Source: Borrelia coriaceae (GTDB taxonomy: Bacteria > Spirochaetota > Spirochaetia > Borreliales > Borreliaceae). Taken from it: a stretch of 32,505 nt of DNA. A program made the translations under genes and the position numbers. Below, piece by piece: positions 1-32,505 of this stretch; the stretch's first letter is position 1; the number at the start of each line of letters is the position of its first letter. The stretch spans positions 1 through 32,505 of the forward strand of contig NZ_CP075095.1 of the NCBI RefSeq assembly GCF_023035295.1. Reading direction: 5' to 3'. The notes below the pieces were generated by a model. The model searched no databases and had not been told where the DNA came from. It saw only the letters and a program-made list of their open reading frames with translations.

Positions 1-22
1 TATATAATTTGTTTTTAGTACA
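1..22 (+). other. Left hairpin telomere sequence
   Basis: The first 22 bases match the inward reading of the opposite end at 20 of 22 positions. They begin TATATAA, continue TTGTT, and end with TTAGTACA at 15-22. This resembles the Borrelia telomere layout of an AT-rich tip followed by a TAGTATA-like 'box 3', with TAGTACA here. The tip would form half of the palindrome that ResT cuts and seals. Whether the closed hairpin is complete to the last base cannot be seen. Confidence 0.8.
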
Positions 23-48
23 TAAGTGTTTGGCTAATAATATTGCAC

Positions 49-215
49 AAAGTTGCCTCAAATAAACACAAAGTTGCTACATAAATATACATAGTTGTTG
101 CCAAAACAAACAAAGTTGACTTTCAAGATTTTTTATTTTTAAGAGTTGCCCCTAACATGAACAAAGTTTCCATAAAAATATATAAAAGTTGCATCTAAAA
201 TATACCAAAGTTGAC
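49..215 (+). repeat. Left subtelomeric phased 21-bp degenerate repeat array
   Basis: Eight copies of a short core, consensus AWAGTTGMY, read inward from the telomere. The G of the core lies at 52, 73, 94, 115, 145, 166, 188 and 210. Steps are therefore 21, 21, 21, 30, 21, 22 and 22 bp. Only the core is conserved; the 12-14 bases between cores vary. The same array, in mirror orientation, sits at the right end. Confidence 0.75.
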
Positions 216-868
216 ATTTTGCTATTATAGATAAATCTACTACTAACTCATTTAAAATAAATCCTAAAAGAATCATTGCTTTAGCTAAAAGCTACTTCTT
301 AATATCAAATAGTACAAATCTCAATAACAAAAATTTTTCTAGCTCTAGTACACAACAGATAACACTCTTTATAAGGTATAGTCAAATCAAATAATAATTT
401 ACAACTTTCATAATATTCTTTTATCAATTCTTAAATTATGATTAATAATAATTCTACAACATACATTGCAAACAAATACCCATAAAAATCTTTAATATAC
501 CTTAAAAAATCTTACTTGTTCTTTTTCATAAAAATCAAATTTTTTACTCTCAAGATCTATGATAGTACACATATTGATATTTTTTTGAACTAAAATTCAT
601 ACAACAATATACTAACTAAAAGTATACAATCGAATACAAATATATATACTAATTTACATTTAAAAAATTATTTATGAATAATATATAAATTTAAAGTAAA
701 CAAAATATTTACCACTATTTAAAAGATCTAAAAATCGCTGCAAAAAATATTTTTTCTTCTTTCTACTATACTAACCACCTCTGTACTATTCACTATTATT
801 CTTATAACTTGAAATCCTTCTCAGAATAACATCCATTAGTAGATATTCGTTCCCACAATACAAAATAC

Positions 869-897
869 TTCCAATTTACCACTTTTTACTGTATAAT
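869..897 (+). promoter_or_regulatory. Candidate promoter of bdr
   Basis: A perfect TATAAT lies at 892-897, preceded by a weak TTCCAA at 869-874 with a 17-bp spacer. It is 19 bases upstream of the bdr ATG, which has its own AAGGAG ribosome site. The -35 element is poor, so this rests mainly on the -10 box and its position. The stretch from 216 to 868 is AT-rich and I see no gene in it. Confidence 0.5.
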
Positions 898-916
898 TAT
901 ACTTAAGGAGACTATC

Positions 917-1549
917 ATGGCACTTCCTCAACCAATAATTACTCAACAAATGGTTATAGCCGAACTTACTAAAGCAGGCATTAATAAAGATATTGCTATT
1001 GATTTATCTTATAGGTACTATAGAAATGAGTTAACTTACAAAGACATTGAGTTTTTAAAAGAAAACTTTGACATAAAACTTGAAAAGGTTGAAGCACTGC
1101 TACAAGCAGAAATTCAGAGGGTTGAAGCAAGTTTACAGTCTGAAATTAAAGACCTTGATAATAAAATTGACAATAAATTCAATGAACTTGATAATAAAAT
1201 CAATACCGTTAGAAATGAATTAAAATCTGATATTAAAAACCTTGACAACAAAATTGACAACGTTGAGAATAACTTAAATAACAAAATTGACAATAAATTT
1301 AACGAGCTTGATAATAAAATTGACAATAAATTCAATGAACTTGACAATAAAATTGATAACGTTGAGAATAACTTAAATAATAAAATTGATACTGTTAGAA
1401 ATGAATTAAAATCATACGTTAGCAATGAAATCTCTATTGTTAGAAGAGATATATCCAACCTAGAGAAGAATAACAAGTGGATATTTGGTTTAACTTTTGC
1501 ATTATGGTTAACAATTCTCGGAGGATTTATAGCCTTAATACTTAAGTGA
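917..1549 (+). CDS. bdr: Bdr (Borrelia direct repeat) protein
   Basis: A 210-residue Bdr-family protein. The N-terminal part has the typical AGINKDIAIDLSYRYY and NELTYKDIEFLKENF segments (about residues 20-50). The middle, about 70-160, is built from repeats of KIDNKFNELD and KIDNVENNLN, predicted to form a long coiled coil. The C-terminal 22 residues (WIFGLTFALWLTILGG...) form one membrane anchor ending in a Lys. Bdr proteins are inner-membrane proteins of unknown function, found on many Borrelia plasmids with variable repeat number. The start is supported by AAGGAG seven bases upstream of the ATG. The gene stands alone, reading away from the left telomere. Copy number of the central repeat is likely to vary between strains. 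Confidence 0.93.
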   Translation: MALPQPIITQQMVIAELTKAGINKDIAIDLSYRYYRNELTYKDIEFLKENFDIKLEKVEALLQAEIQRVEASLQSEIKDLDNKIDNKFNELDNKINTVRNELKSDIKNLDNKIDNVENNLNNKIDNKFNELDNKIDNKFNELDNKIDNVENNLNNKIDTVRNELKSYVSNEISIVRRDISNLEKNNKWIFGLTFALWLTILGGFIALILK

Positions 1550-1597
1550 ATTACTCAAGTTCTATAACCTTTGGTCATAAACTAGCAATTCACTTAA
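1542..1597 (+). terminator. Inverted repeat at the end of bdr, possible terminator
   Basis: Perfect 11-base arms (TTAAGTGAATT at 1542-1552 and its complement at 1587-1597) are separated by 34 bases and include the bdr stop codon. There is no T-run after the second arm, so this may be a 3' stabilising hairpin rather than a classical terminator. Confidence 0.4.
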
Positions 1598-1615
1598 ATC
1601 ATAATAGCATCAACT

Positions 1616-2006
1616 CTACGCAATTGTTATCTTACCCTTCTTAAATCCTTTACTTTGCTTCCCTTGTAACCTTTCAAAAGGTACTTCCCTTTCATCAACA
1701 GGTTCAATGCCACCAAACCTTACCTTTACTATCAACAGACTCCCTTTCCAAACTACCAAGAAATAATTCCTTATAATCCTCAAAAATCATATCCAAAATA
1801 TTACTCATCAAAGCACCTTGGATTGTTTCACATTCATAATTATCACCAACTCTATTAATTGTAATTCCATGACTAGAGCTATATTTCTTTCTTACCCAAT
1901 CCTTAAGATATGCATATACATACTCATAGTCAATATCTTCAGAACTAAGTATTGGAAAGTTAATTATTTTCTTATCTGTCCTTTTAGATTATACTTCACG
2001 GCTCAT
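1616..2006 (-). pseudogene. Decayed plasmid gene with one stop and one frameshift
   Basis: Reading leftward from an ATG at 2006 gives MSREV, then an in-frame TAA. The frame then stays open for about 80 codons, including YEYVYAYLKDWVRKKY and MSNILDMIFEDYKELF. Around 1705 the frame is lost in VDSKGKVWWH and resumes one base shifted as FGGIEPVDEREVPFERLQ, ending at a TAG at 1616-1618. The composition and continuous sense of the segments point to a former gene of about 130 codons. I do not recognise the family; a plasmid or prophage protein typical of Borrelia is possible. It lies directly downstream of the maintenance-type gene on the same strand. There is no ribosome site of note at the ATG. 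Confidence 0.55.
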
Positions 2007-2069
2007 GTAAGTATTCCAAAATCTATGCCTTTTTATATAACCTTTTTACTAAATATTTCAAATTAAATC

Positions 2070-3479
2070 TCATTTACTCTCCTTTTCTTTTAAATTATCA
2101 TTTTGGCCTATATCTTCAATCATTATTCCTAAATTCAGCATACTCATACCCTTAGTAGTTTTAAATCCTCCAAAATCATCTCTAATTGCAAATTTAACCA
2201 TAGAATCCTCATTTGAACTAGCACATATCATGTTATCCTTCCCATTATTTGATATACCCAACTCAACACACCTTTCCTTACTCCTTTCCAAAGTAGCAAG
2301 CATGCTTTCTCTAGCTTTCTTTTTTAAATTCAATTCTTCTTCTCTAGCCTTTCTAAGTCGCTCTTCTCTTTCTTTTGCTTCTATTTCAAATAACCCAGTT
2401 AAATATTTTTGAAGCCTATCAGCTTCTCGTTTTCTTTCCTCTTCTCTTTCTTTTGCTTTTTCTATCTCTTTTTCTTTTAATTCTTCTACATTTAACTGCT
2501 CATTAGCCCTTTTCTCCTTAACAACAGATGCTTTTTTAATTCCTATTCGTAAATTTTCTCCATAAGTCGATTTGACGGCACAATTACTCTTGTACTTATT
2601 GGGATACCAATCCCTAAACCTACCTTCCCAAATAAGATCATAATCGCTAATAACTCCATCACTACGCTTCATCATCATCCAAATCTTATACTTGTACCTA
2701 TTACCAAACTGCTTTAAGAAATGTTCTAAAATATCTTCGATGTAATATTCACCTTGGTACTCATCTATTGCAGTCTCTAGATTGATTAGGGCATTGATAT
2801 ACGTTGCATCGTTGTTACTGTATTCTTTTATTTGTTTTAGATAATTTTTACTGATTTTATGTTCACAAGTTAGCCTTGTCTCTATATCATTCCTTTTGAA
2901 TCTACACTCTTCTTTTTTTAGTTTACTTGAATTAGTATTCTTAAGAAGCAATTCTTTAGAATTCTTATTATTGCTTATATTAGCTTTATTATTAAAAGCA
3001 TGAGGGGCAACACGATGCGACATTACACTTTTATTTGGGTCATCTATTTCAGACAGGATTCCAAATTTTTTAAGGTTTGTGTAATTAAAATTGCCTTCTT
3101 CTAATGAGTCATCAAAATTACCAACAATTTTTTTATCACTTAAACTATCTTTTAGTAAATGTAAAAGGTATTTAGAAATTATGTCTTTATGTAAATGTGC
3201 TAATTGCATATTTTGTTTATAAAAAGACATGCTGCCCTTATTCTCACCAAATCTTAGAATTTTAGATTCTAAGAGACCCATTTCATTTAATAACTTTATA
3301 TCTCTTTCAATTGTTCGTTTACATACTGTCTTCTGTCCATCATTTTTCAGTAGCTTGATTACTATGTTGTATATATCACGTGCTGAGTAGTCTTCTACTC
3401 CACACGACTTCTTGTATTTTGCATTCTTAATTGCTATTATCCAGTAGATTTTATACAAGCGCAGCTTGCGTCTTAACAT
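2070..3479 (-). CDS. Orphan PF57/62-type plasmid maintenance protein
   Basis: A 469-residue relative of the Borrelia PF57/62 (ORF-A) replication and maintenance family. Residues about 1-95 align with the 22161-23084 protein: RRKLRLYKIYWII against DRRLKVFWVIQ, then KRTIERDIKLLNEMGLLESK against KRTIQSDIKNFEEIGLLKTN, a winged-helix-like region. The centre is basic. Residues about 310-400 are highly charged (KEKEIEKAKEREEERKREAD), probably a coiled coil. Unlike the set near 22-25 kb it has no PF50, PF32 or PF49 neighbours; a decayed gene follows it. No clear ribosome site precedes the ATG. The frame remains open upstream to about 3608, but without a conventional start codon. It may be a relic or second replicon gene captured from another plasmid, or still be active as a DNA-binding protein. 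Confidence 0.75.
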   Translation of the reverse strand: MLRRKLRLYKIYWIIAIKNAKYKKSCGVEDYSARDIYNIVIKLLKNDGQKTVCKRTIERDIKLLNEMGLLESKILRFGENKGSMSFYKQNMQLAHLHKDIISKYLLHLLKDSLSDKKIVGNFDDSLEEGNFNYTNLKKFGILSEIDDPNKSVMSHRVAPHAFNNKANISNNKNSKELLLKNTNSSKLKKEECRFKRNDIETRLTCEHKISKNYLKQIKEYSNNDATYINALINLETAIDEYQGEYYIEDILEHFLKQFGNRYKYKIWMMMKRSDGVISDYDLIWEGRFRDWYPNKYKSNCAVKSTYGENLRIGIKKASVVKEKRANEQLNVEELKEKEIEKAKEREEERKREADRLQKYLTGLFEIEAKEREERLRKAREEELNLKKKARESMLATLERSKERCVELGISNNGKDNMICASSNEDSMVKFAIRDDFGGFKTTKGMSMLNLGIMIEDIGQNDNLKEKESK

Positions 3480-3722
3480 TCTGTTGATTTGATATCTAAC
3501 TTGAGATACACGAATAAATTTAATATCAGCAGATGTTTTATCTTTATTTAATGCTACAAGAGATTTTAGTATTGACTTTACTTGGCTTTTGGTATCATTT
3601 GAATTGAAAAAATTTTTTTATATTTTGTTAAAACGTCCATACGTTTTGTACCTTGAATCCAAAATTAAATTTTCAATTCGAAATCTTTGGTATTGTTAAG
3701 CACAATCAAATAATATTACCTG

Positions 3723-5177
3723 CTACTTATTTTCTAACACATCATGCGTATGAGATTCTCTTAAAGAAGCAGGGCTTATTCTTACAAATTTAGCGTTTAT
3801 CTTTAATTCTAATATTGTGCCCACTCCCAAATAACCCATTCCAGACATCAAACCTCCCTTTAATTGGAATATAATGTCTTTTAATTTCCCAGCATAAGGA
3901 ACCATGCCTTCAATACCTTCAGGAATCAATTTACCAGAAGACTCTTCATTTTCAAGTTGGAAATACCTCGATTTAGAACCTCTAGCCATAGCAGCAAGAG
4001 AACCCATCCCAACATAAACTTTAAATTTCTTTCCATTATACATTATTTCTTCTGAAGGAGACTCATAAGCACCAGCAAAGAGATTGCCCAACATTACACT
4101 ATCAGCTCCTGCTGCAATTGCTTTAACTATATCTCCTGAGAATCTAATTCCACCATCCGCAATAACACAAGTATTTGTATGTTTACAAGCTTCAAAAACA
4201 TCATGAATGGCAGTCAATTGCGGTACCCCAACTCCTGCAACTATTCTCGTAGTACATATGCTTCCTGGACCTATTCCTACTTTCACACAATCTACTCCTA
4301 AATCAATTAAATCAAAAGCTGCTTCCTTAGTCACTATATTACCCGCAATGAGGTCCAAATTTGGGTACTTATTTTTAATTTTCCTTGCAAGCTCAAGTAC
4401 TCTCGTAGAATGTCCATGCGCAGAATCAATCGCAATGACATCAACATCCGCCTTTACTAATTCCTCAACACGCTCTAAAGCATCAACATCAGTAGAAACA
4501 GCCGCACCCACTCGTAATCTATTCTTTGCATCTTTACATGCATTAGGAAAATACTCTTGATGTTCCACATGATCTATGTCTTTGCAAGTTATTAATCCTC
4601 TTAAATTATGAGCCTCATCAACAATAAGTAGCTTTTCTATCTTATGTTTAAACAAAATTTCCTTAGCCTCTGTTAACGTTATATCTTCTTTTGCTGTAAT
4701 TAATTTTTTAGTCATTGCACTCATTACGGGGACATTATTATCTGTAATATATTTAATGTCTCTATTAGTTACTAGACCCAATATTTTCCCTGCTCTATCC
4801 GTAACAGGCAATGCAGAGATCTTATGTTGTGCAATCAATATCTTAGCTTCTTGTATATTTGCATTCTCATCTATAGTAATAGGATTCCTGACAATTCCAG
4901 TACGATGGTAGCCTTTTACTAACTCTACTTCTTTTCTTTGAGCTTCAATTGGAAAATTTTTATGTATAATGCCCATTCCACCTTCTTTAGCCATAGCTAT
5001 TGCCATTCGACTTTCTGTAACTGTATCCATAGCTGAGCTTAAAAAAGGTATATTTAAAGATATATTTTTTGTTAACTTTGTTCGCAAATCAACATCACTA
5101 GGTAATACAGATGATTTTCTAGGAATTAAAGAAACATCATCAAACGTCAAAGCTTCTTTCACGATTTTCTCTACCAA
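3723..5177 (-). CDS. guaB: Inosine-5'-monophosphate dehydrogenase
   Basis: IMP dehydrogenase, which oxidises IMP to XMP with NAD+ in GTP synthesis. It is 484 residues, a standard full length. A TIM barrel is interrupted by two CBS domains at about 94-205 ([40 protein letters not shown]). The catalytic loop [10 protein letters not shown] carries Cys308, Asp251 is in IAIDSAHGH, and the flap has Arg404-Tyr405. The start is TTG at 5177: AAGGAG lies six bases upstream and no ATG fits. It follows guaA by 19 bases, so the two are co-transcribed. My recollection is that the B. burgdorferi cp26 enzyme is shorter, with its CBS region largely absent, so the intact CBS pair here would differ; this needs an alignment. 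Confidence 0.97.
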
Positions 5178-5196
5178 CAGATTCTCCTTATTTTCA

Positions 5197-6735
5197 TTAT
5201 TCCCATTCTACTGTAGCTGGGGGCTTAGAAGAAATATCATAACAAACTCTATTTATACCTCTAACCTCATTAATTATTCTTGAAGAAACCTTCCTTAAAA
5301 AATCATAAGGCAATTCAACCCAATTAGCAGTCATAAAATCTAGAGTATTAACACACCTAATAACAGCTGTATACTCATACGTCCTATTATCTCCCATAAC
5401 TCCAACAGATTTTACAGGCAACAACACCACAAATGCTTGTCTTATATTATAATATAAATTATTTGCCAAAAGCTCTTCTACTAAAATACTATCAGCTTCC
5501 TGTAAAATATTAATTTTTTCCTGAGTGATCTTACCAATTATTCTTATTGACAATCCTGGCCCTGGAAATGGATGTCTATAAAGAACATTCTCTTCAACCC
5601 CTAATTGAATTCCCAATTGAACTACTTCGTCCTTAAAAAGCTCTCTTAATGGCTCTAAAAGTTTTAATTTAATCTTCTCCGGAAGTCCCCCCACATTATG
5701 ATGTGATTTGATATGTGATGAAAAACCATTATTGCCCGACTTAGACTCAATGACATCTGAATAAATAGTGCCTTGAGCAAAAAACTCAACACGCTCTTCT
5801 TCCAAAGCTACTTTTTCAAAAATATCTACAAATGTTTGTCCTATGACTTTTCTTTTCTCTTCAGGTTCTTCAATATTGTCCAAATTATTCAAAAATATTG
5901 AAGAAGCATTAACATGTTTTATGTTTAAATTGTAATGTCTACTAAGTTCTAATATTTCATGAACTTCATTTTTGCGTAACAAACCAGTATCGATAAAAAC
6001 ACAGATTAAATTACTTTTTATTGCCTTATTAACAAGTAAAGCACATACTAAAGAATCTGTTCCACCAGAAAGTCCTAAAATTACTTTTTTATCACCTACT
6101 TGAAGTTTTATTTTTTCAACAAAATCGTATACGCTAGCACTTAAATTCCAATTAACCCGAGCTTGACAAATTTTAAAAACAAAATTTTTAAGTATTTGAT
6201 TTCCAACCTCTGAACAAGTGGCTTCTGGATGAAATTGTAAGCCATAAATTTTTTTCTCTTCACTAAATACGGCTGCAATACAAGTTTTGGTAGAAGCTAT
6301 TTGTTTGAAATTACTTGGAACCTTTTCAATATTATCTCCATGACTCATCATTACTTTCAACTTACCAGAAAGCCCTAAAAACAAATTAGACCGATTATCT
6401 TCTATAAAAAGTTCAGTATCACCAAATTCTTGCTTATCGCATTTAGAAATTACGCCTCCAAACAATTTAATAACAAGTTGCATTCCATAACATATTCCTA
6501 AAATAGGAATACCTAATTTAAAAATTTCAATATCCACAGTAGGAGCTCCCTCTAGATAAACAGAAGCAGGACCTCCACTTAAAATTATCCCAACAGGATG
6601 CATATCCTTAATCTCTTGTGCAGAAACAGAATATGTAATGATTCTTGTATAAAAACCTATCTCTCTAATTTTTTTCGCAATCAATTGACTATACTGCGAG
6701 CCAAAATCTAATATAATTACTGCATCATTGTCCAT
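5197..6735 (-). CDS. guaA: GMP synthase (glutamine-hydrolysing)
   Basis: Converts XMP to GMP using ATP and glutamine. The 512 residues hold, in order, a class I glutamine amidotransferase domain (1-190) with nucleophile Cys82 in GICYGMQL and His169/Glu171 in QFHPEA; an ATP pyrophosphatase domain with P-loop SGGTDS at 223-228; and the C-terminal dimerisation domain ending ISSKPPATVEWE. Many family members have SGGVDS, so Thr226 is a mild variant. AAGGAA precedes the ATG. It is the first gene of the guaA-guaB pair. Borrelia lacks de novo purine synthesis, so with the permease at 10124-11479 this forms the salvage route from hypoxanthine to guanine nucleotides. The 300 bases upstream (6736-7035) show no gene. 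Confidence 0.97.
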   Translation of the reverse strand: MDNDAVIILDFGSQYSQLIAKKIREIGFYTRIITYSVSAQEIKDMHPVGIILSGGPASVYLEGAPTVDIEIFKLGIPILGICYGMQLVIKLFGGVISKCDKQEFGDTELFIEDNRSNLFLGLSGKLKVMMSHGDNIEKVPSNFKQIASTKTCIAAVFSEEKKIYGLQFHPEATCSEVGNQILKNFVFKICQARVNWNLSASVYDFVEKIKLQVGDKKVILGLSGGTDSLVCALLVNKAIKSNLICVFIDTGLLRKNEVHEILELSRHYNLNIKHVNASSIFLNNLDNIEEPEEKRKVIGQTFVDIFEKVALEEERVEFFAQGTIYSDVIESKSGNNGFSSHIKSHHNVGGLPEKIKLKLLEPLRELFKDEVVQLGIQLGVEENVLYRHPFPGPGLSIRIIGKITQEKINILQEADSILVEELLANNLYYNIRQAFVVLLPVKSVGVMGDNRTYEYTAVIRCVNTLDFMTANWVELPYDFLRKVSSRIINEVRGINRVCYDISSKPPATVEWE

Positions 6736-10119: not shown

Positions 10120-10123
10120 CAAC

Positions 10124-15546: not shown

Positions 15547-17184
15547 ATGACTACCACTGTAAACAAATTTGCCATTTTACAAAAAATCGGTAAGGCTTTC
15601 ATGTTGCCAATAGCCCTCCTGCCAGCAGCAGGACTTTTACTAGGAATTGGTGGCGCATTTACCAACGAAACAATGATTCAAACTTACAGACTTGAAAATA
15701 CTCTGGGACAAGGAACCCTGCTAAACATTATCCTATCGGTCATGAGAGATACTGGTGGTGTAGTATTTGAAAATTTACCGCTAATATTCTCATTAGGAAT
15801 TGCCATTGGTCTTGCCAATGTAGAAAAAGGTTCTGCTGGACTTGCAGGAGGAATTGGATTTTTAATTATGCATAAAGCCATAAGCAGTACTCTCGCAATC
15901 CAAGGAATAACTGCTGAAACAGTCAATCCTGAATATTTAATGACAACAGGATTTACTGAAGCACAAGCTGTTGCAAAATCATTTGAATATACAAATGTGC
16001 TTGGCATACATACCCTCCAGATAGGAGTACTTGGGGGTATGATCTCAGGGTTCATTGCCGCACATCTCCACAACAAGTATTACGACATTAAACTACCTCA
16101 GTTTCTAGCGTTCTTTGGAGGAACAAGATTCGTCCCAATAGTTACAACCGGTACTATGTTAATTATTGGTATAATACTCGTATTTATTTGGCCACCTATA
16201 CAAAGCATAATTGCAATGACAGGTCAAATTGTAGAAAAATCTGGTTACTTTGGTTCATTTTTATTTGGCATAATTGAAAGAGCATTAGTCCCAACAGGTC
16301 TTCATCATATATTCTACATGCCATTCTGGCAGACACCTTTAGGCGGAACAATGGAAATTCACGGAGAATTGATTTCAGGAGCACAAAAAATATTTTTTGC
16401 ACAACTTGCAGACCCAAATTTTTCAGGACACTTTGAAGTTACAAAAGGGACAAGATTTTGGGTTGGAAAATGGCCAGGACATGCATTTGGACTCCCCGGA
16501 GCAGCACTTGCCATGTGGTGGGTAGCAAAACCTGAACGCAAAAAAGAAATGGCAGCATTTCTTGGTTCTGTAGCATTCACATCATTCTTAACAGGCATAA
16601 CAGAACCTGTCGAATTCACATTCATTTTCGCAGCACCTATTTTATTCTTTGGTTTTAACGTCTTTATGTATGGCATGGGATTCGTATTGATGCATCTTTT
16701 AAATGTTGGGGTAGGAGTTACATTTGCAGATGGATTTATTGATTACCTTCTTTACGGAATACTTCAAGGGAATGAAAGAACAAGTTGGATAAATATATTC
16801 TACGTAGGAATACCTTATTTCTTTATATATTTCTTTGTCTTCAAATGGAGCATAGTCAAATTTGATTTCAAAACTCCAGGAAGAGAAGATGATGGAGTAA
16901 CTGCTACAAGAGCAAGCTCAAAAGAAATACTTGATAATTTAAAAGAAATTACAACCAAAACCATCACAGGCCTTGGAGGCGTTGGTAATATTAAATACCA
17001 CAGTGCATGCATTACAAAATTAAGAGTTGAGGTACATGACATGAATCTTGTCAAAAATAACGCTTACTTTAAAGAACTTGGTGCTAAAGGCATTATAAGG
17101 CAAGACAAAGGACTACAAATTATATTTGGCGTTGTATCAGATAATGTCAACACAGAACTAGAAAAAATAACAAAAGAATCATAA
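15547..17184 (+). CDS. ptsG: PTS glucose/maltose-type EIICB transporter
   Basis: A 545-residue EIICB permease of the glucose-maltose PTS family, which imports and phosphorylates its sugar in the inner membrane. The EIIC domain (about 1-430) starts FAILQKIGKAFMLPIALLPAAGLLLGIGG and contains GLHHIFYMPFWQT and TGITEPVEFTF. A linker KFDFKTPGRED leads to EIIB, with the phosphorylated Cys488 in YHSACITKLRVEV. There is no EIIA, so an EIIA encoded elsewhere must phosphorylate it. The start is supported by ACGAGGAG. It corresponds to the single PTS gene I recall at the end of cp26 (BBB29, also called malX-2). It is closely followed by a paralogue of the same architecture. Glucose is the likeliest sugar; maltose or glucosamine cannot be excluded. 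Confidence 0.93.
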   Translation: MTTTVNKFAILQKIGKAFMLPIALLPAAGLLLGIGGAFTNETMIQTYRLENTLGQGTLLNIILSVMRDTGGVVFENLPLIFSLGIAIGLANVEKGSAGLAGGIGFLIMHKAISSTLAIQGITAETVNPEYLMTTGFTEAQAVAKSFEYTNVLGIHTLQIGVLGGMISGFIAAHLHNKYYDIKLPQFLAFFGGTRFVPIVTTGTMLIIGIILVFIWPPIQSIIAMTGQIVEKSGYFGSFLFGIIERALVPTGLHHIFYMPFWQTPLGGTMEIHGELISGAQKIFFAQLADPNFSGHFEVTKGTRFWVGKWPGHAFGLPGAALAMWWVAKPERKKEMAAFLGSVAFTSFLTGITEPVEFTFIFAAPILFFGFNVFMYGMGFVLMHLLNVGVGVTFADGFIDYLLYGILQGNERTSWINIFYVGIPYFFIYFFVFKWSIVKFDFKTPGREDDGVTATRASSKEILDNLKEITTKTITGLGGVGNIKYHSACITKLRVEVHDMNLVKNNAYFKELGAKGIIRQDKGLQIIFGVVSDNVNTELEKITKES

Positions 17185-17205
17185 CCATCAAAAACAATAA
17201 CTTGT

Positions 17206-17230
17206 AAGGAATGGGCACCACCCATTCCTT
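17206..17230 (+). terminator. Hairpin after the first PTS gene
   Basis: A perfect 10-bp stem AAGGAATGGG/CCCATTCCTT with a 5-base loop lies 21 bases after the stop. It is GC-richer than its surroundings. The downstream tract (CTGAAACAATTTTGTCTTT) is only moderately T-rich, so it may be a terminator or a processing/stability hairpin between the paralogues. Confidence 0.65.
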
Positions 17231-17291
17231 CTGAAACAATTTTGTCTTTAAATTTATTTACAAGATTAACAAATATTGTTAATATATAACT

Positions 17292-17326
17292 AAATAATAT
17301 AATTAAAAATGTTAATTATATTATTT
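17292..17326. promoter_or_regulatory. Inverted repeat upstream of the second PTS gene
   Basis: Perfect 15-base arms (AAATAATATAATTAA at 17292-17306 and its complement at 17312-17326) flank a 5-base loop. It ends 27 bases before the ATG, almost the same spacing as the palindrome before the first PTS gene. The inner arm TTAATTA is shared. A common operator or leader hairpin is plausible. Confidence 0.65.
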
Positions 17327-17353
17327 TAACAACTATTCAAGGGGGAGAATATT

Positions 17354-18982
17354 ATGTCAATATCATCAGAATCTATATTTACAATATTACAAAAGGTGGG
17401 AAAAGCTTTTATGTTACCAATAGCTCTTCTACCAATAGCCGGGATCTTACTAGGAATTGGTGGTGCACTTACCAACAAAACCATGATTCAAGCTTATGGC
17501 ATTGAAAACATACTTGGTGAGAATACTTTAGCAAGTTCAATACTGTTTTTAATGAAATATACAGGTGAAGTAATTTTTTCAAACTTACCTTTAATGTTTG
17601 CAGTGGCAATTCCAATTGGACTGGCAAGAGCTGAAAAAGGAACAGCTGCTCTTGCTGGAGTTGTAGGATTTTTAGTCATGCATCAAACTATCAATGGAAT
17701 CTTATCTATCCAAGGAATAAACCCTTCAACCGTAAGTGTAGAATCACTAATATCAATTGGAACACCCGAAGCAGAGGCAATCGCAAAAAATCAAGAATAC
17801 ACAAATGTACTTGGAATTTTCTCTCTTCAGATGAGCGTAATGGGGGGAATGGTAGCAGGATTTATTGCAGTAATGTTGCATAATAGACTGCATAACATCC
17901 AACTACCGATATTTCTAGCATTTTTTGGAGGGTCAAGATTCATTCCCATTATAACCACACTTATGATGTTTATAGTAGGGATAATTTTAACATATATTTG
18001 GCCACTAATTCAAGGAATGATGACTACACTTGGAAATATTATAGAACAATCTGGATATTTCGGTTCTTTTGCATATGGGGCTATAAAAAGATCTTTAATA
18101 CCTTTTGGACTTCATCATATATTTTATATGCCATTTTGGCAAACATCTTTGGGTGGAATCATGGAAATTAACGGAGAATTGATCTCAGGAGCACAAAATA
18201 TTTTTTTCAAACAACTCTCAGATCCTAATACTGTACACTTCGAAGTTACAAGAGGTACACGATTTTTCAGTGGTGAATTTATAGTAATGATTTTCGGATT
18301 ACCTGGGGCTGCCCTTGCCATGTATCATACTGCAAAAAATGAGAATAAAAAAAACACAGCTTCTCTATTATTATCAGCTAGTTTCACATCAATGTTAACA
18401 GGAATAACAGAACCTATTGAATTTGCATTCCTGTTTGCTGCTCCTGCTCTTTACTATCTCATATATGTTCCTTTATTTGGACTAGCACATCTACTAGCAC
18501 ATATTTTCAATATTGGAGTTGGATTAACATTTTCTGGAGGATTCATTGATATGTTTTTATTCGGCATATTACAAGGAAATAATAAAACAAATTGGATAAT
18601 GATCCCTCTAATTGGAATATTTTACTTCATAGCATTTTATTACATTTTCAAATTTGCAATTATAAAGTTCAATCTAAAAACACCAGGCCGTGAAGATCTA
18701 GAGACAGTCATAAAAACAAGTTCACAAAACACAGGAATATCAAAAATTGCAAAAAAAGTACTAGAAGGACTCGGGGGCAAAGACAACATCACATATCTTG
18801 ACGCATGCGCATCAAGATTAAGAATAAATGTTAACAAAATCGAACTAGTAAAGTCTGTTACCTATTTTAAATCCATTGGAGCAAGTGGAGTGCTTAAAAA
18901 GGGAAATGGTATCCAAATTATATTTGGAGGATTATCTGATAATATAAGAATGGAAATGGATAAAACTTATATCAATGCATAA
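17354..18982 (+). CDS. Second PTS glucose/maltose-type EIICB transporter
   Basis: A 542-residue paralogue of the preceding gene, alignable end to end: TILQKVGKAFMLPIALLPIAGILLGIGG, GLHHIFYMPFWQT, TGITEPIEFAF, the linker KFNLKTPGRED, then EIIB with Cys485 in YLDACASRLRINV. All key features are intact, so it should be active. Substitutions are spread over the whole length, so the duplication is not recent. The two may differ in sugar; the substrate cannot be read. GGGGGAG lies just upstream of the ATG. It has its own upstream inverted repeat and a downstream hairpin, so it can be transcribed separately. As I recall, Lyme cp26 has only one gene here. Confidence 0.92.
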   Translation: MSISSESIFTILQKVGKAFMLPIALLPIAGILLGIGGALTNKTMIQAYGIENILGENTLASSILFLMKYTGEVIFSNLPLMFAVAIPIGLARAEKGTAALAGVVGFLVMHQTINGILSIQGINPSTVSVESLISIGTPEAEAIAKNQEYTNVLGIFSLQMSVMGGMVAGFIAVMLHNRLHNIQLPIFLAFFGGSRFIPIITTLMMFIVGIILTYIWPLIQGMMTTLGNIIEQSGYFGSFAYGAIKRSLIPFGLHHIFYMPFWQTSLGGIMEINGELISGAQNIFFKQLSDPNTVHFEVTRGTRFFSGEFIVMIFGLPGAALAMYHTAKNENKKNTASLLLSASFTSMLTGITEPIEFAFLFAAPALYYLIYVPLFGLAHLLAHIFNIGVGLTFSGGFIDMFLFGILQGNNKTNWIMIPLIGIFYFIAFYYIFKFAIIKFNLKTPGREDLETVIKTSSQNTGISKIAKKVLEGLGGKDNITYLDACASRLRINVNKIELVKSVTYFKSIGASGVLKKGNGIQIIFGGLSDNIRMEMDKTYINA

Positions 18983-19871: not shown

Positions 19872-21221
19872 TTAAACATTATATCCAAAAATTACGGCCA
19901 GATACTCACCAAGTTTGACATAGTTATAATTATAACCATATTTTTGCTTGAAAGCCTTACGAATTCTAACATTAAGACCCCGTATCATTTCCAACTCTTC
20001 TATACCATCTGATGTCATCAAATCTTTAATCACAGACAAAGTCTTTATATAATTCTCATCCATCATACCACTCTCCTTGAACAACATCTCCAATTGTTGC
20101 ATGGTAATAACAGAATATGTAGTTTTTCTCCTAACATAGATATATATTCGTCTTTTAATCAATTTCAACAAATCAATATCAGCACTATCATCCAAATTTT
20201 CTAAGACATAACGATTATAATGAAAAGCCGTTATTATATCATCATGTTCATGTCCCAAAACCGTGGTTATCCACAAATTTAGCTCCATATTTTTTGGAGC
20301 AAATGCAAGATAAGAAAATCTACTATAAAGTCTTCTACAAAAATAAATTGACTCTTCAGGTTCAAATATATTTTCAAAGATCTTACGAAACAATCTATTA
20401 TAACTATAAGAAAGATTTGAAGATACAATTTCTTTTGAAAGTTTTTCTGTCCTTTCCATATACCTTATCTCCTTTATTGAATCAATAATCAATTTAGAAT
20501 CAGCAAAAGTAGGAAAAACAACTTCATGAACTAAATTATGCTCTTTCTTCTTTGCAATATGTTTCATTAAAATATGTTCACTATCTTCAACATAAAATTT
20601 AGATACTTTCAGTATTTCAACAGGACGTCGTCCTGTTGCCATTAACACTCCATAAAACTTCAACCTAATATCTCTTTTTTGAGTCAATAAAATATTGATT
20701 ATCTCAATATAAGTTTTTAAATTGATCTTAACCGATATCTGCTCTCTTCTATAACTATTAATTTTTGAAATCTTATAATGATGTGAATAATTATTTAACC
20801 ATTCCGGGCTTTTAAACAAACCTAGGAAAGACTCAAAATATACTTTTTGACCTAAAATATTATTAGCAACCATCAATTCTTCGATTCTACATAGATCTTT
20901 TATATCTATATTGGACAAAGCCTTAACCTCTTTAGGAATCCAAAAAAACAAAAGCTTATTTTTCTGCCTTATCTCCTCAATCACTGCAAGATTGATATAT
21001 TCCTTTATTATTTTACGAGTTTTAGAAAGATTCAATATAATTGAAAGGTTAGTAAATTTATCTTTCCTTAAGAGGAGACTTTTATGTTGTTCAGCAAGAA
21101 CACTCAAGTTCTTATTTAACCTAGAATATGAGATCTCGTATTTCAAATATCTAATATATATTGATTCCAAGTTTTTTCTAAAAAACTCAAGATCTTTTTT
21201 TACACTAACTTTTAAAGACAT
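19872..21221 (-). CDS. resT: Telomere resolvase ResT
   Basis: Resolves replicated linear replicons by cutting the telomere palindrome and sealing hairpin ends, through a type IB topoisomerase/tyrosine recombinase mechanism. Length, 449 residues, equals that of B. burgdorferi ResT. The catalytic residues fall at the same numbers: Arg199 (ATGRRPVEIL), Lys224 (AKKKEH), Arg296 (FCRRLYSRF), His324 (VLGHEHDD) and nucleophile Tyr335 (FHYNRYVL). The N-terminal domain (about 1-160) is basic and helical. The start at 21221 keeps this numbering. An extended -10 lies only nine bases before it and there is no ribosome site, so the mRNA may be nearly leaderless. Its presence fits the telomeres at both ends; it presumably serves all linear replicons of the cell. 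Confidence 0.97.
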   Translation of the reverse strand: MSLKVSVKKDLEFFRKNLESIYIRYLKYEISYSRLNKNLSVLAEQHKSLLLRKDKFTNLSIILNLSKTRKIIKEYINLAVIEEIRQKNKLLFFWIPKEVKALSNIDIKDLCRIEELMVANNILGQKVYFESFLGLFKSPEWLNNYSHHYKISKINSYRREQISVKINLKTYIEIINILLTQKRDIRLKFYGVLMATGRRPVEILKVSKFYVEDSEHILMKHIAKKKEHNLVHEVVFPTFADSKLIIDSIKEIRYMERTEKLSKEIVSSNLSYSYNRLFRKIFENIFEPEESIYFCRRLYSRFSYLAFAPKNMELNLWITTVLGHEHDDIITAFHYNRYVLENLDDSADIDLLKLIKRRIYIYVRRKTTYSVITMQQLEMLFKESGMMDENYIKTLSVIKDLMTSDGIEELEMIRGLNVRIRKAFKQKYGYNYNYVKLGEYLAVIFGYNV

Positions 21222-21230
21222 ACTAAGTAA

Positions 21231-23084: not shown

Positions 23085-23103
23085 TTAGGAAAATATAAAA
23101 AAT

Positions 23104-25469: not shown

Positions 25470-25492
25470 TTGATTATTATTATTTTTTAAAT

Positions 25493-26011: not shown

Positions 26012-26042
26012 ACTTCCCCCTTTTGTACTAATCATTATTAAT

Positions 26043-26081
26043 ATAATGTATTGTTTAGTTTTTTTTAAAGTAATACATTAT
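26043..26081. promoter_or_regulatory. Inverted repeat upstream of the 25493-26011 lipoprotein gene
   Basis: Perfect 10-base arms ATAATGTATT (26043-26052) and AATACATTAT (26072-26081) are separated by 19 bases. The position, 31-70 bases before the start codon, is that of a promoter or operator. No other copy was noticed in the window. Confidence 0.45.
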
Positions 26082-26104
26082 GATATCTTTAACATTATAC
26101 TTTA

Positions 26105-26859: not shown

Positions 26860-26887
26860 TTGAAAAATAAAATTTTTGCATTAAATT
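26860..26887 (+). promoter_or_regulatory. Candidate vlp promoter
   Basis: TTGAAA at 26860-26865 and TAAATT at 26882-26887 are separated by 16 bases and lie 28 bases before the vlp ATG. AAGGAGG at about 26899-26905 is a strong ribosome site. The -10 box is imperfect. Confidence 0.45.
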
Positions 26888-26914
26888 ATTAGGTTAATAA
26901 GGAGGCACATAACA

Positions 26915-27976: not shown

Positions 27977-28025
27977 TATAATAATTAGATAAAATTTATA
28001 CGATATACATAACTAAATAAAGTCA

Positions 28026-28067
28026 TTAAAGGAAACTCTTCTTTTGATAGGAGTAGTTTTCCTTTAA
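28026..28067 (+). terminator. Intrinsic terminator of vlp
   Basis: Arms TTAAAGGAAA (28026-28035) and TTTCCTTTAA (28058-28067) are perfect, with a partly paired interior, and run directly into a T-tract at 28068-28075. It lies 50 bases past the vlp stop. Confidence 0.85.
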
Positions 28068-28075
28068 TTTTTTTT

Positions 28076-28364
28076 CCTTAATAAGGGTGATCGATAACAT
28101 GAAGAATTTTGTAGATTTCAGATTTAATAAGATTCATAACTATATTAATATTACTTTAATCTAATGATATGTTGTGGACATCGATCAGATGATTATGTTG
28201 ATAAAAATGACCTAGCTCAAGAGTTTGAGGGAAATTTAGGTAAAGTAAGGGCGGTAGTTTATATAAATGCTGAGTATGCTTTTTACTCTTTTATAGTTTA
28301 TATATTTTTAAAGTGTCTTTTCAATAGATTTTTGATTTTGTGGAAACTTTAATGATTTTCAGTG
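28076..28364. other. Short open fragments between vlp and pncA
   Basis: Two small plus-strand frames are present: MKNFVDFRFNKIHNYIN from 28099, and one from 28164 beginning MICCGHRSDDYVDKNDLAQ (62 codons). Neither has a ribosome site or a recognisable domain. They may be remnants of sequence flanking the vlp gene. I do not call a gene here. Confidence 0.3.
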
Positions 28365-29015
28365 TTAAAGTATGTGAAAATTTACTTTTTGGAAATTATG
28401 GTTTAACTTAAAATTGTTTAGAATATCTTTAGCTAAACAAGTTAATATCCCAAGCTTTTGGAGCTTTAAAATTATTAGTTCAGGGTAATGTGAAATACTT
28501 TTTGTAACATCAGTGATTAAGTAAGATTGAAATTTTAAATTATGAGCATCAATTATTGTTTCTCGTACACAATAATCGAGAGCCAATCCTACTACAAATA
28601 CTGTATCAATTGCATTGGAGTGGAGATAATGGAAAAGACCAGTTTTATTTTTTTTGTTAGAATCGTCATAAAAACCACTGTAGCTGTCATAATTTTTATT
28701 TTGTCCTTTTAGAAAAACAGCTTTTATTTTTTCGATATTTAGATTCTTTGGGAATTCTGAGCCCCATGTATTTTGAATACAATGTTTAGGCCAAGCTTTG
28801 TGATTAGCATGATTTGAAAAGCTTATATGGTTTTCGGGGTGCCAATCCTTGGTGGCAACAATATGTTCAAAGCAATGTTGAAGTTGGTTAATCAATGGTA
28901 TAATTTTATCCCCTTGGGGAACAGGAAGAGAGCCTGCTTCTAAAAAATCGTTTTGAATATCTACTAGAATTAATGCAGAATGCTTAAATGTTGGATTAAA
29001 AATTGTAGTTTTCAT
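28365..29015 (-). CDS. pncA: Nicotinamidase
   Basis: Hydrolyses nicotinamide to nicotinate for NAD salvage, in the cytosol. From the ATG at 29015, supported by AGGAAA eight bases upstream, it has 216 residues of the isochorismatase-like fold. The catalytic triad is Asp19 (LILVDIQNDF), Lys103 (AVFLKGQ) and Cys149 (GLALDYCVRET). The metal-site residues Asp57 and His59 (ATKDWHPENH) and His78 (WPKHCI) are present. In B. burgdorferi the gene is on lp25 (BBE22) and is needed for infection of mammals. Here it stands on a different plasmid backbone, alone, between vlp and a region of decayed genes, which suggests it moved between plasmids. Confidence 0.96.
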   Translation of the reverse strand: MKTTIFNPTFKHSALILVDIQNDFLEAGSLPVPQGDKIIPLINQLQHCFEHIVATKDWHPENHISFSNHANHKAWPKHCIQNTWGSEFPKNLNIEKIKAVFLKGQNKNYDSYSGFYDDSNKKNKTGLFHYLHSNAIDTVFVVGLALDYCVRETIIDAHNLKFQSYLITDVTKSISHYPELIILKLQKLGILTCLAKDILNNFKLNHNFQKVNFHIL

Positions 29016-29239
29016 AAATAGATTTCCTGTTAAATAGTGATAGTAATTATATGAATAATAGGGCATATTATTAAATAATTCTGTAGATATGTTAATTTTT
29101 TATTTTAGTATTAAATATTGTATTAGGTGAGAGTAAGGTAAAATAGATTTATCAGGATTAATCGTGAGATTAGAGATATGAGAATTCTTTTTTTTGAAAA
29201 ATTAAAAAGTTAAGTCGTGGTGATTTATGTGAATTATTA

Positions 29240-29488
29240 GTCTTTAATTAAAGAATATAGTGTCATTAGTCATTCATTAGGTATTAAGGCTATAAACCTT
29301 ATAATTACTGTTGACCATAATGTAAAGGTGAGGCTAAATGTTCATTTGTTATTCTTATCTAAGTTGGATATATTTTGTATTTTAGATTACCGTTAAATGG
29401 TATAACCTATCAAGAGTTAATCACTCGTATTGAATATAGAGCTACTTACTTAAACATCAATGGTAATAATAGTCCGAACATCCAATAG
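29240..29488 (+). pseudogene. Unassigned decayed coding fragments
   Basis: Two adjacent open segments in different plus-strand frames: one containing ISHSLGIKAINLIITVDHNV, ending with TAA at 29394-29396; the next containing GITYQELITRIEYRATYLNI, ending with TAG at 29486-29488. They may be parts of one frameshifted gene. There is no start signal. The family is not recognised; a prophage-type plasmid gene is possible. Confidence 0.35.
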
Positions 29489-29529
29489 TGTAATTTTCCA
29501 GTCTGTCTTATTAATTTTTATGTCTTTTC

Positions 29530-29690
29530 TAACGAGATAAAATCTCATTGCCAACAGTATTAATTTTGTTGCCAAGATTGGTTTTAATTGCTGTAATTTC
29601 TGATGTTAAGTTTCGTTTGAACATTTACAGTTTAATATCACAAAGGTCGCTTTTAACAATTTGATACTTTGTGAGTAAGCTCATTTAAAA
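29530..29690 (-). pseudogene. Relic of a bdr gene
   Basis: Reading leftward, NELTHKV, then in another frame VKSDL, DIKL, a stop, then NLTSEITAIKTNLGNKINTV followed by GNEILSR and a stop. These match the intact Bdr at 917-1549, which has NELTYKD, LKSDIKNL and NKINTVRNEL. Several stops and shifts make it nonfunctional. It reads inward from the right end, mirroring the intact bdr that reads inward from the left end. Confidence 0.6.
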
Positions 29691-30130
29691 AACCTTGAAA
29701 AGTAATGAATATTTGGGAGGTTCAATATAAGAATAGCCTTATATCATTATTATACAGTATTTTGAGAATTGATAAAATAAGGTTTTGCGAATGTAGAGAG
29801 TATTGTTAGTTGAAGTTTAAGGCAATAAGATATTATCAAAAAGCTGATTTTGAATTCTATTAGTATATTTATAGTTAATGCCAAGTGTTTTGAGGTGTAG
29901 ATTAATGTAAGATTTGAGAATGGGTAAGTTTTTGTTTGATTTGCTATTAAAAAAGAGTTTTGGCAATATAATCCAATAATTGGTTAAATTAATATTTAAT
30001 CATTTAATATATATACTTTAGATGAGAGATGTGTATGATTATATTTAGAGACGAAATCCATCTTACTGTTAAATAGTACAAAATTATTTATAAGTATTTT
30101 TGTTGTGTTAAGGATTAACACAAGAATAGA
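29691..30130. other. Noncoding stretch
   Basis: About 440 bases of G/T-rich plus strand with many stops in all frames. I see no gene, hairpin or repeat that I can defend. Confidence 0.35.
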
Positions 30131-30390
30131 TTATAAATTGTTTTCATGATCTCCTTGATAATTTCATTGAGAACCATTTGACTTATAATTATTGATTGAA
30201 AAATTCTCATAAGATCTTTCCTTATAGAGAGATGGTAGCGATGTCATATTTGTAGCAGTAGGATTTGCATTTCTTGGATTTAATTAAAGCTTCCCACAAT
30301 CTTTGAGATAGGTATTATGTTATTAGGTTGAGCACGCTTAATCATATCTTGCACTTGATAATATTTAACCTTGGTTATTAACAGTGTTGC
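30131..30390 (-). pseudogene. Decayed gene, family unknown
   Basis: Reading leftward from about 30390, ITKVKYYQVQDMIKRAQPNN continues to ISKIVGSFN and a TAA. One base shifted, NPRNANPTATNMTSLPSLYK then ERSYENFSINNYKSNGSQ follows, then a stop, then NYQGDHENNL and a final TAA at 30131-30133. The clear protein-like segments joined by a shift and a stop mark a former gene. I cannot name the family. Confidence 0.5.
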
Positions 30391-30416
30391 AAATTATATT
30401 TATTAGAGCACAAAGA

Positions 30417-30635
30417 ATGAATTTAAATACAAATGATTTTGATTGTGAGAAAATATTAAAATTAGAACTTAAAGATGGTTCTGTGAGCATTATTAGTCCC
30501 CGATCTAAAATCGGGGATGACATTAGAGTTGAGATTGAAACTATAGAAGATAGAATAACGAATGGTATTATTGTCGTGCCAAGTAATTTTGGCGAATATA
30601 ATAAGTTTTTAGATATTTGTAATCTATTGAATTGA
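30417..30635 (+). pseudogene. C-terminal fragment of a bmp-family gene
   Basis: A frame of 72 codons (MNLNTNDFDCEKI...). Its end, VEIETIEDRITNGIIVVPSN, then EYNKFLDI, resembles the end of the complete downstream Bmp-family protein (IQVEIVNGELVIPSTDYELD). It therefore looks like the 3' remnant of a bmp paralogue whose 5' part has been lost and replaced by decayed sequence on the other strand. No ribosome site of note is present. It could instead be a short expressed peptide, but nothing supports that. Confidence 0.5.
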
Positions 30636-30777
30636 TACCCTTCTATTTATAGATATAATGGCATTAATGTTTTTTATTTTGTCTTTATTATAAAATAAAT
30701 TTTATATTTATAATTTAGTGTTATTTTTATTGATAGTTTGTTTTTTTTTAAAATTTGTTTTTAGGAGAGGATTGGTT

Positions 30778-31851
30778 GTGTCAAAAAATTTATGTTTTAT
30801 GTTTTTATTTTCTTTATTTTTTATATCTTGTTTTTTTTCAAGAAAGTCATCGACTGTTATTAATAATCAAGTTGTTATGGGAATTATATCCCCACGTAGT
30901 TTTGATACTAATGGCTATTTTAGAAATGCCTTTAATGGTGCCCTTAATGCGAGTAATGAGTTTGGGATTAAACTTATTCCAAAAGTTTTGACACCTTATC
31001 CTGTTGAAGGTAAAAGATTGATGACATTTGATGAGGTATTATCGGAAGATATTTTTGCCTTACAAAAGGAAGGTGCCAATTTTATTTGGTTTGTTAGTTC
31101 TTATTTTTCAGATATGGCTATAAGGTTTGCTTACGAGAATTCAGATATTTTATATGGAATTATAGATGATTTTAGTCGTGAACAAGCTGTATTTCCTAAA
31201 AATTTGATATCTATTGTTTTTAGGGTAGAAGAGGGGGCATTTTTAGCTGGATATCTTGCTTCTAAGGTGAGTAAAAGTAATAGGATTGGATTTGTGACAG
31301 GTGTTAATATTCCTAATGTTAATAGATTTTTGGTTGGGTTTAGAGCTGGAGCTTTTTATGAAAATTCTAAGACAAGAGTAATTTTAAAAAGAATTTTAAA
31401 AGATCGTGACGAAGCTGTTGGTGAGGCTGTTGCCAAGTATATGTACCTTCAAGATGGAGTTGATGTTATTCTTCCTGTAGTGGGTCCTGCAGTATTTGGT
31501 ATATTTCGTGTTGCAAAGGATCTTGGACCTGGGCATTATGTCATTGGGATAGATAAAGAGCATTCAAACTTTGCACCTGGACATGTTATTGCTTCTGTGA
31601 TTAAAGATGTTGGAAAAGTAATATCTGATTGTTCATCAGATATTATAAAAAGTCGTAATTTTAATGTTGGTGGCCTGATTGAAAACGGAATTAAGGAAGG
31701 GATTGTAACTCTTATTAAAGATCCTAGTATTATTGGTAAAGATTTATTTGATGTTCTTACAAAAATTCAGGTAGAGATAGTGAATGGTGAACTAGTTATA
31801 CCGTCTACTGATTATGAATTAGATTTATTTAAAGAAAAATTAAAGAGATAA
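30778..31851 (+). CDS. Bmp-family (PnrA-like) substrate-binding lipoprotein
   Basis: A lipoprotein of the basic membrane protein family (PF02608), the substrate-binding component related to PnrA purine-nucleoside receptors. The start is a GTG at 30778: AGGAGAGG lies seven bases before it, and the product begins MSKNLCFMFLFSLFFISC with Cys18. Family features include MGIISPRSFDTNGYFRNAF, NRIGFVTGVNIPNVNRF then LVGFRAGA, VDVILPVVGPAVFGIF and VIGIDKEHSNFAPG. Length, 357 residues, is typical. An ABC permease partner is not encoded here. Chromosomal bmp genes are known in Borrelia; this plasmid copy is next to a bmp remnant. It may bind purine nucleosides, which would suit the salvage genes on this plasmid, but the ligand is inferred. 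Confidence 0.9.
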   Translation: MSKNLCFMFLFSLFFISCFFSRKSSTVINNQVVMGIISPRSFDTNGYFRNAFNGALNASNEFGIKLIPKVLTPYPVEGKRLMTFDEVLSEDIFALQKEGANFIWFVSSYFSDMAIRFAYENSDILYGIIDDFSREQAVFPKNLISIVFRVEEGAFLAGYLASKVSKSNRIGFVTGVNIPNVNRFLVGFRAGAFYENSKTRVILKRILKDRDEAVGEAVAKYMYLQDGVDVILPVVGPAVFGIFRVAKDLGPGHYVIGIDKEHSNFAPGHVIASVIKDVGKVISDCSSDIIKSRNFNVGGLIENGIKEGIVTLIKDPSIIGKDLFDVLTKIQVEIVNGELVIPSTDYELDLFKEKLKR

Positions 31852-32310
31852 TAGTTTGATTAAAGGATATTGTGTTGTAACAATTTTGTGGGTTTTTGAA
31901 AAAAAATGTGAACTTAACTACTAGTTTAGTATGTTCTAATTTATGTTTATTAGTTAATTAAACTGTAAATTAGTACGAATTTTGTATTCGATTATATAAT
32001 TTTAATTAGTATATTTTAGTATGAATTTTAGTTCAAAATAAATATTAAGATGTGTACTGTAATAGATCTTGGAAGTAAAAAATAAAGTTTTTTATGAAAA
32101 ATAACAAGTGAGATTTTTTAAAATATATTAAAGATTTTTATGGGTACTTTTTGTGATGTATGTTGTAGAAATATTATTTGATTTGAGTATAAATTATTGG
32201 ATATTGTAATTTTTTGTTTTATTAGATCATAAAAATATTTTGGTTATAAAGACAGTAGGATTAAGAAATTTTTAGAGAAATCCTTTAGTAAGGATATTAT
32301 TAATGTGTTG
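31852..32310. other. AT-rich noncoding stretch before the right repeat array
   Basis: About 460 bases with stops in all frames and no recognisable gene, strong hairpin or promoter. It counterpart-matches the gene-free stretch inside the left array. Confidence 0.4.
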
Positions 32311-32314
32311 AGAT

Positions 32315-32454
32315 CAACTATTAATTTTTTACTGTCAACTATTAAGTTCTTGGCGTTAACTTTTAATTTTTGTGAAACTAATAAGATCAACTTTTGCTTT
32401 TTTGGTATTAACTTTTTAGTTATTGTAAACAACTCTTTATTTTTTAGGCTCAAC
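32315..32454 (-). repeat. Right subtelomeric phased 21-bp degenerate repeat array
   Basis: Seven copies of AWAGTTG or AAAGTTA on the minus strand, reading inward from the right end. The core G pairs with plus-strand C at 32454, 32433, 32412, 32391, 32360, 32339 and 32318, giving distances of 52, 73, 94, 115, 146, 167 and 188 from the end. The spacing and the single long step match the left array. A minus-strand open frame across it is an artefact of the repeat. Confidence 0.75.
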
Positions 32455-32483
32455 TATTGAGAGAGGCCGGCGGCAGAATACTC

Positions 32484-32505
32484 TGTACTAATAACAATTT
32501 ATATA
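32484..32505 (-). other. Right hairpin telomere sequence
   Basis: Read from the end inward on the minus strand this is TATATAAATTGTTATTAGTACA, differing from the left end at two of 22 positions (8 and 14). TTAGTACA is again at 15-22 from the tip. It supports a linear molecule with both ends present. Confidence 0.8.

Follow-up and report, generated by a model that had tools for sequence, protein, structure and literature searches.

A phased AGTT array beside PF-88 genes on many linear Borrelia plasmids hints at a telomere-binding system

Introduction

Why would a short word recur at nearly constant steps just inside both hairpin ends of a linear plasmid? The question is raised by a 32,505-nucleotide stretch of Borrelia coriaceae DNA (GCF_023035295.1, contig NZ_CP075095.1), referred to here as the window, which is the whole of contig C20 in a 1.79-Mb genome of 24 contigs and closes on each side in a hairpin-type tip. 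At the hairpin telomeres of Borrelia, the protein known to act is ResT, which binds the tip motif TAGTATA, named box 3. A first-pass annotation of the window described copies of AWAGTTG at 21-bp steps from both tips and read them as a protein scaffold for telomere binding, assistance to ResT, end protection or membrane tethering. Here, the array was followed through the genome and the genus. Its spacing is regular, its cores are less variable than its spacers, and its presence is statistically linked to one class of telomere tip and to PF-88, a gene family (the name is from one NCBI record) that supplies the first inward gene past the array at many ends. We tentatively propose, with a probability of roughly 0.4, that the array is a set of helically phased sites for a sequence-specific protein, most likely PF-88, within a cassette of class-1 tip, array and inward-reading PF-88 gene. 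Its place beside PF-88 on many linear plasmids hints at a telomere-binding system.

Results

The array at the ends of the window

The left tip (1-20, plus strand) is of class 1 (TATATAATTT...) and closes with box 3, TTAGTA, at 15-20. Inside it, AGTT starts 51, 72, 93, 114, 144, 165, 187 and 209 nucleotides from the tip. Units 1-4 (51-117) follow one another at exact 21-bp steps, a T-rich gap (118-143) is the source of a 30-bp step, and units 5-8 (144-212) are separated by 21, 22 and 22 bp. The right end, read on the minus strand, is similar. Its class-1 tip (TATATAAATT...) occupies 32486-32505 with box 3 at 32486-32491, units 1-4 (32389-32455) have AGTT at 51, 72, 93 and 114 from the tip, and units 5-7 (32316-32361) have it at 145, 166 and 187, again at 21-bp steps. 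The gap between them (32362-32388) is the source of a 31-bp step and contains one off-register AGTT at 127. The core positions first reported were thus correct, each distance being one larger than that of the A of AGTT. The core AWAGTTG itself was too strict, as 6 of the 8 in-register sites on the left and 4 of the 7 on the right have it; the others read AGAGTTG, AAAGTTT, AAAGTTA and similar, and the constant word is AGTT.

This arrangement is not expected by chance. When the 230-bp ends were shuffled with dinucleotide composition preserved, four AGTT at 21 bp appeared in 0 of 20,000 shuffles of the left end and 0 of 20,000 of the right, and the seven positions common to both ends were likewise reproduced in 0 of 20,000. 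Over the whole window and both strands, runs of at least three AGTT at exactly 21 bp are present only at the two ends. The sequence between the cores does differ between the ends, as had been claimed: across the spacers of units 1-4, left and right share 51% identity, against a shuffle mean of 41% (z 1.9).

The array across the genome

All 23 AWAGTTG-N14-AWAGTTG pairs in the B. coriaceae genome lie less than 200 bp from a contig end, and the reversed control pattern had no match in this genome. The contig ends sort into several telomere types, lettered A-F in our own naming. Type A comprises 11 ends with the array, and type B ends (C11R, C17L, C20R and C22R) also carry it. Type D ends (C10L, C19R and C22L) lack the AGTT array and give a weak 21-bp signal, type E is degenerate, and types C and F are without the array. 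Neither chromosome end is arrayed. When the right ends of the chromosome (C1) and of C23 were inspected, C1R was seen to be a truncated array end, with 66 bp of type-A telomere before it diverges. The first-pass annotation had named telomeres without the core as evidence against its reading, and many such telomeres exist, both chromosome ends included. A general telomere role is therefore not supported, and the array is rejected as a universal telomere or ResT site. Since there are array-less telomeres, neither ResT resolution nor end protection can need the array on every replicon.

The left end of the window shares 82-87% identity with type-A ends; C18R, a perfect copy of that end, was set aside. 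Across the 11 type-A ends, 2 of 32 AGTT columns are variable compared to 48 of 131 spacer columns (Fisher 5e-4). An intact PF-88 gene lies at only one of them, C13R, and because gene loss may be recent, the constancy of AGTT at these ends is suggestive only.

The array across the genus

The array is present at ends of genomes assigned to hermsii, parkeri, turicatae and puertoricensis, and at named miyamotoi, nietonii and turcica ends. In several miyamotoi ends some of the cores read AATT, and valaisiana lp36 and burgdorferi N40 lp17 have two or three units. In most relapsing-fever arrays, the first core lies 34-38 bp from box 3 and the steps are about 21, 21, 21, 28-31, 21 and 21-22 bp. The tip-to-core register noted in the window therefore extends to most relapsing-fever arrays but differs elsewhere. 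One puertoricensis type has about 30-32 bp between box 3 and core, and B. turcica lp32-B, of the reptile clade, has 22 bp (box 3 at 13; cores at 35, 56, 78, 99, 129 and 150; steps of 21, 22, 21, 30 and 21 bp). Three turicatae-type arrays have a fourth step of 20 bp, one helical turn less. Lyme ends with PF-88 have the core AACTTTAAC, whose opposite strand contains AAAGTT. With extra sites at 16, 72, 93 and 144 omitted, AACT occurs at 44, 66, 87, 117 and 138 in afzelii lp28-7 and at 44, 66, 87, 117, 138, 168 and 189 in garinii lp28-7. In the latter, a 51-bp block (21 + 30 bp) is duplicated at about 80-205, as if unit gain were in progress.

Across 16 arrays, with core positions partly set by hand, 82 of 100 steps are 21 or 22 bp, and steps deviate on average by 0.44 from a multiple of 10.5 bp. 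A motif search with free steps recovered these steps in most array ends. Without a step prior, the search gave 41-59 bits in 8 ends without PF-88 and 50-115 bits in 20 others, ranges that overlap, and two 21-bp steps were seen in a control end (G009C1L) as well. Of 18 genus genomes, 12 contained the exact pair pattern, with contig-end matches only in G000, G004, G009 and G017 and internal ones in the rest; the reversed control matched in 3 of 18. AACT-N4-AGTT forms a dyad in 4 of the 7 units of parkeri, in 2 of 8 and 2 of 7 units at type-B ends and in 2 of the 4 of puertoricensis C17, and in none of the units of four other ends checked. The triple pattern was also considered as a telomere marker outside Borrelia and rejected. 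It matched at least 118 stretches, and the 11 inspected were mostly tandem or coding repeats, so it means little without position.

Although many spacer pairs are near the shuffle level, the first and fourth cores are separated by 62-64 bp in those AGTT types that were measured. For the first four units, spacers of our type A and parkeri are 44% identical (shuffle 38%), and those of our type B and miyamotoi CP114733 are also 44% identical (shuffle 44%); type B and puertoricensis C17 are clearly related (69% vs 43%). The right end of the window had no megablast match among named plasmids, and a slower search gave two, both puertoricensis. Phased, fixed spacing with diverged spacers is thus found in three Borrelia clades, and the cores vary less than the spacers. 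This pattern supports the part of the scaffold reading that concerns protein-binding sites, which it fits better than recent duplication.

Association with PF-88 and with tip class

A tblastn search with the parkeri PF-88 protein matched 183 plasmid records, 121 from Borrelia and 62 from Borreliella, and among the matches listed (60 of the 183 records) the best match lies no more than about 2.1 kb from the record end. The association was measured with a lag test that does not use the core word, on non-redundant ends scored for a whole or remnant PF-88 match within 1.3 kb; shuffles reach z 2 at lag 21 in 53 of 2,950 cases. At lag 21, z was at least 2 in 15 of 20 ends with PF-88 and 6 of 39 without, and at lags 20-22 in 17 of 20 and 8 of 39, respectively. 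Five of the six lag-21 positives without PF-88 do have the AGTT array, the gene being lost, decayed or beyond the stretch examined. In two genomes of several contigs without PF-88 (G001 and G015), no telomeric core pairs were found, three G001 tips being covered.

Two classes of tip can be distinguished (at 1-14 and 32492-32505 in the window): TATAATTT-like tips form class 1 and TTTAGTT-like tips class 2. Arrays go with class 1, being present at 20 of 26 class-1, 1 of 23 class-2 and 10 of 59 unclassed tips.

In the window, PF-88 survives as remnants towards both ends: a start-less, inward-reading piece at 236-322 on the plus strand (tblastn to P0016, 62% identity, E 3e-5) and a C-terminal piece at 29823-29984 on the minus strand, inward from the right end (E 2.9e-10; E 7.6e-13 for 29823-29969). 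The same genome has stop-free copies on C11, C13, C19 and C22, which could act in trans. By eye, TATAAT stands very near the PF-88 ATG in five loci (L323, L324, L325, L327, which is garinii lp28-7, and L329), as if the mRNA were leaderless. In miyamotoi lp72 (L332, 1151-1400) and turicatae lp42 (L333, 1027-1203), box 3 and an array stand in front of PF-88 some 1 kb or more into the record, which could mean that a telomere was internalised or could be an effect of assembly. A further family, Y, is found before PF-88 or alone at C10R, C13L, C22R and C23L (example L054:2014-2748, minus strand). It has a signal-peptide-like start, and the copy tested had no Pfam or NCBIfam match.

PF-88 as a resolvase relative

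Structure prediction gives PF-88 the resolvase catalytic fold, and sequence comparison suggests that the catalytic residues have been lost. The catalytic residues of ResT, R199, K224, R296, H324 and Y335, are all invariant in the ResT alignment. In the sequence register, ATGRRP of ResT stands opposite ASGI-P of PF-88, and Arg is found there in 0 of 23 rows covering the site. No Arg column reaches 80% conservation anywhere in the PF-88 alignment, nor does any His or Tyr column from 130 to 190; K129, which is invariant, may stand opposite ResT R296. PF-88 is basic and differs from the PF16684 resolvases ResT, TelA and TelK in its length of about 250 residues, the missing first catalytic Arg, the lack of a counterpart of ResT 1-162 and the lack of a PF16684 sequence match. 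Residue 17 of PF-88 is opposite ResT 163, with a short, poorly predicted stretch before it, and the N-terminal hairpin-binding domain (ResT 1-163) was accordingly not found. A passage of PMC7861564 states that TelA resolves even without its N-terminal domain, while ResT 164-449 does not.

Profile comparison of PF-88 with ResT by hhalign scored 22.2-22.5, which 2-3 of 100 column shuffles equalled, and for the C-terminal part against ResT 336-449 no similarity emerged, as 96 of 100 shuffles did equally well. PF16684 was not among the Pfam matches of 24 PF-88 members at E 1. Weak matches to other Pfam families (best E 0.0049; Phage_rep_org_N at 0.009 in 1 of 24 rows), to PHROGs, and by sequence to PDB entries (best E 0.23 in the PDB), were taken as chance.

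Other genes of the window

The active relative of PF-88, resT, lies outside the array at 19872-21221 on the minus strand (449 aa; PF16684, E 2.5e-21) and is the sole PF16684 match in the genome in a profile search, even at E 10. The window also encodes two PTS transporters and has genes like guaA and guaB; these genes together lie at 3723-6735 on the minus strand and 15547-18982 on the plus strand. This set resembles that of Lyme Borrelia cp26, of which the window would be a linear counterpart.

Discussion

We infer from these associations that PF-88, a small, basic and catalytically dead resolvase relative that would have kept DNA binding, may bind the array and occupy roughly the first 200 bp inward of the hairpin. 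With two helical turns between units, many molecules would align on one face of the DNA. As the array spans from near the tip to the promoter, PF-88 would likely control its own promoter at the array's inner end. It might also shape the end itself, helping or restraining ResT or protecting the hairpin. In relapsing-fever types, how steady the distance to box 3 is suggests that PF-88 touches ResT or excludes it.

Several observations weigh against this proposal. In type B, a family Y gene precedes PF-88, and internal PF-88 copies exist (e.g. G002, G004 C5 and G000 C15). Five of the 20 PF-88 ends fall under the lag-21 cut: G004C11L has few units, at 22 bp; turcica lp34R peaks at lag 20; bavariensis lp25 reaches z 1.9; N40 lp17L is just below 2.0; and burgdorferi B500 lp28-6 reaches 0.2. 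Little array is visible in B500 lp28-6 and bavariensis PBaeII lp25. The core word varies by group (AGTTG, AGTTT, AACTTTAAC) without simply tracking the protein: PF-88 is about 55% identical between Lyme and parkeri and 47% between parkeri and hermsii, yet the latter two both use AGTT. Finally, array and PF-88 may travel together by descent only.

The strongest rival is a regulatory role alone, in which the array would serve the first subtelomeric gene (PF-88, or Y followed by PF-88) as its operator or activator region and be bound by PF-88 or another regulator, with no part in telomere function. The array does stop at the promoter. As judged by eye, the last hermsii core yields TTGACA, followed after about 16 bp by an A+T-rich -10, and the last core of turcica lp32-B and of N40 passes into TATAAT near the ATG; internal array remnants in G002 contigs also precede PF-88. 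We nevertheless hold this account to be on the unlikely side since tip class tracks the array, the box 3 distance stays at 34-38 bp in most relapsing-fever types despite a diverged stretch (24-59% identity in types of equal length) and cores persist at ends without intact PF-88, though that loss may be recent. It is decidedly less likely that PF-88 is a bystander in the cassette and that another protein occupies the array, for example the N-terminal domain of ResT or a chromosome-like protein such as Hbb. ResT is encoded in the window, and the fixed spacing to box 3 in most relapsing-fever arrays would suit it; however, array-less telomeres in the same genome mean that ResT does not need the array, and G001 and G015, which are without PF-88, lack telomeric core pairs at the tips covered. 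LytTR regulators use GTT-containing direct repeats spaced 21-22 bp apart, much like these, but one was rejected as the binder because PF04397 had 0 matches in the B. coriaceae genome, while 5 of 14 control genomes were positive.

Two further explanations dispense with a specific binder. Under the first, the array is a relic, an old tandem repeat spread between ends by telomere exchange and now without function. The 82-87% identity of type-A ends to the left end of the window indicates that copying between ends continues, and garinii lp28-7 has its additional 51-bp block copy, but a relic would hardly keep its cores less variable than its spacers, or hold the first and fourth cores 62-64 bp apart while many between-type spacer pairs are near shuffle level. 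We regard it as very unlikely. More improbable still is intrinsic bending, in which the end is curved by phased A-tracts and the cores count only as elements of that curve. In a wedge model, the end-to-end ratio was compared to 200 shuffles of each end. It was 0.58 for hermsii (matched by 0 of 200) and 0.54 for parkeri (1 of 200), and the window ends were also unusual (left 3 of 200, right 4 of 200). In contrast, miyamotoi CP114733 is only weakly curved (14 of 200), and afzelii lp28-7 (29 of 200) and turcica lp32-B (80 of 200) are not unusually so. The G and T of AGTT are also conserved, beyond A runs alone. Since the bend is predicted for relapsing-fever arrays and not for turcica or afzelii, bending is at most an aid.

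The proposed PF-88 array system resembles several known ones in part. Iterons of plasmid origins are direct repeats about 21 bp apart beside the gene of a basic protein, and the array shares their helical phasing. Borrelia replication origins, however, are internal, whereas the arrays are at both ends of a linear plasmid and on many replicons per cell; no Rep-like fold was seen among the matches listed for PF-88. Box 3 is at the same end, outside the first core, but occurs at arrayed and array-less telomeres alike, while the array goes with one tip class. MrpR (YopR) of SPbeta and SroF of phi3T are phage repressors with a recombinase fold unlinked to telomeres. PF-88 likewise combines a predicted recombinase fold with an apparently non-working catalytic set, though its fold is nearer to resolvases. 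In the open-access literature, a scope outside which the classic hermsii and Lyme telomere papers lie, we found no description of a phased telomere array or of the PF-88 fold, and no open-access paper on PF-88 in Borrelia under its paralogous-family names. A passage of PMC12958805 states that Borrelia telomere sequences are to be analysed more fully.

With a telomere class recognised by its tip, phased array and resolvase-fold protein, hairpin protection, the movement of telomeres between replicons and the control of end-adjacent genes would become testable. PF-88, an unannotated family that matches 183 plasmid records, also gains a fold prediction and a candidate site to bind. A bolder version, which we consider unlikely, is that PF-88 is a dedicated telomere-binding protein, a resolvase minus its catalysis and N-terminal domain, which spread to plasmid ends, coats the array, marks one telomere class and controls how ResT and recombination treat these ends. 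If this were true, Borrelia would have a capping complex descended from the enzyme that builds the cap.

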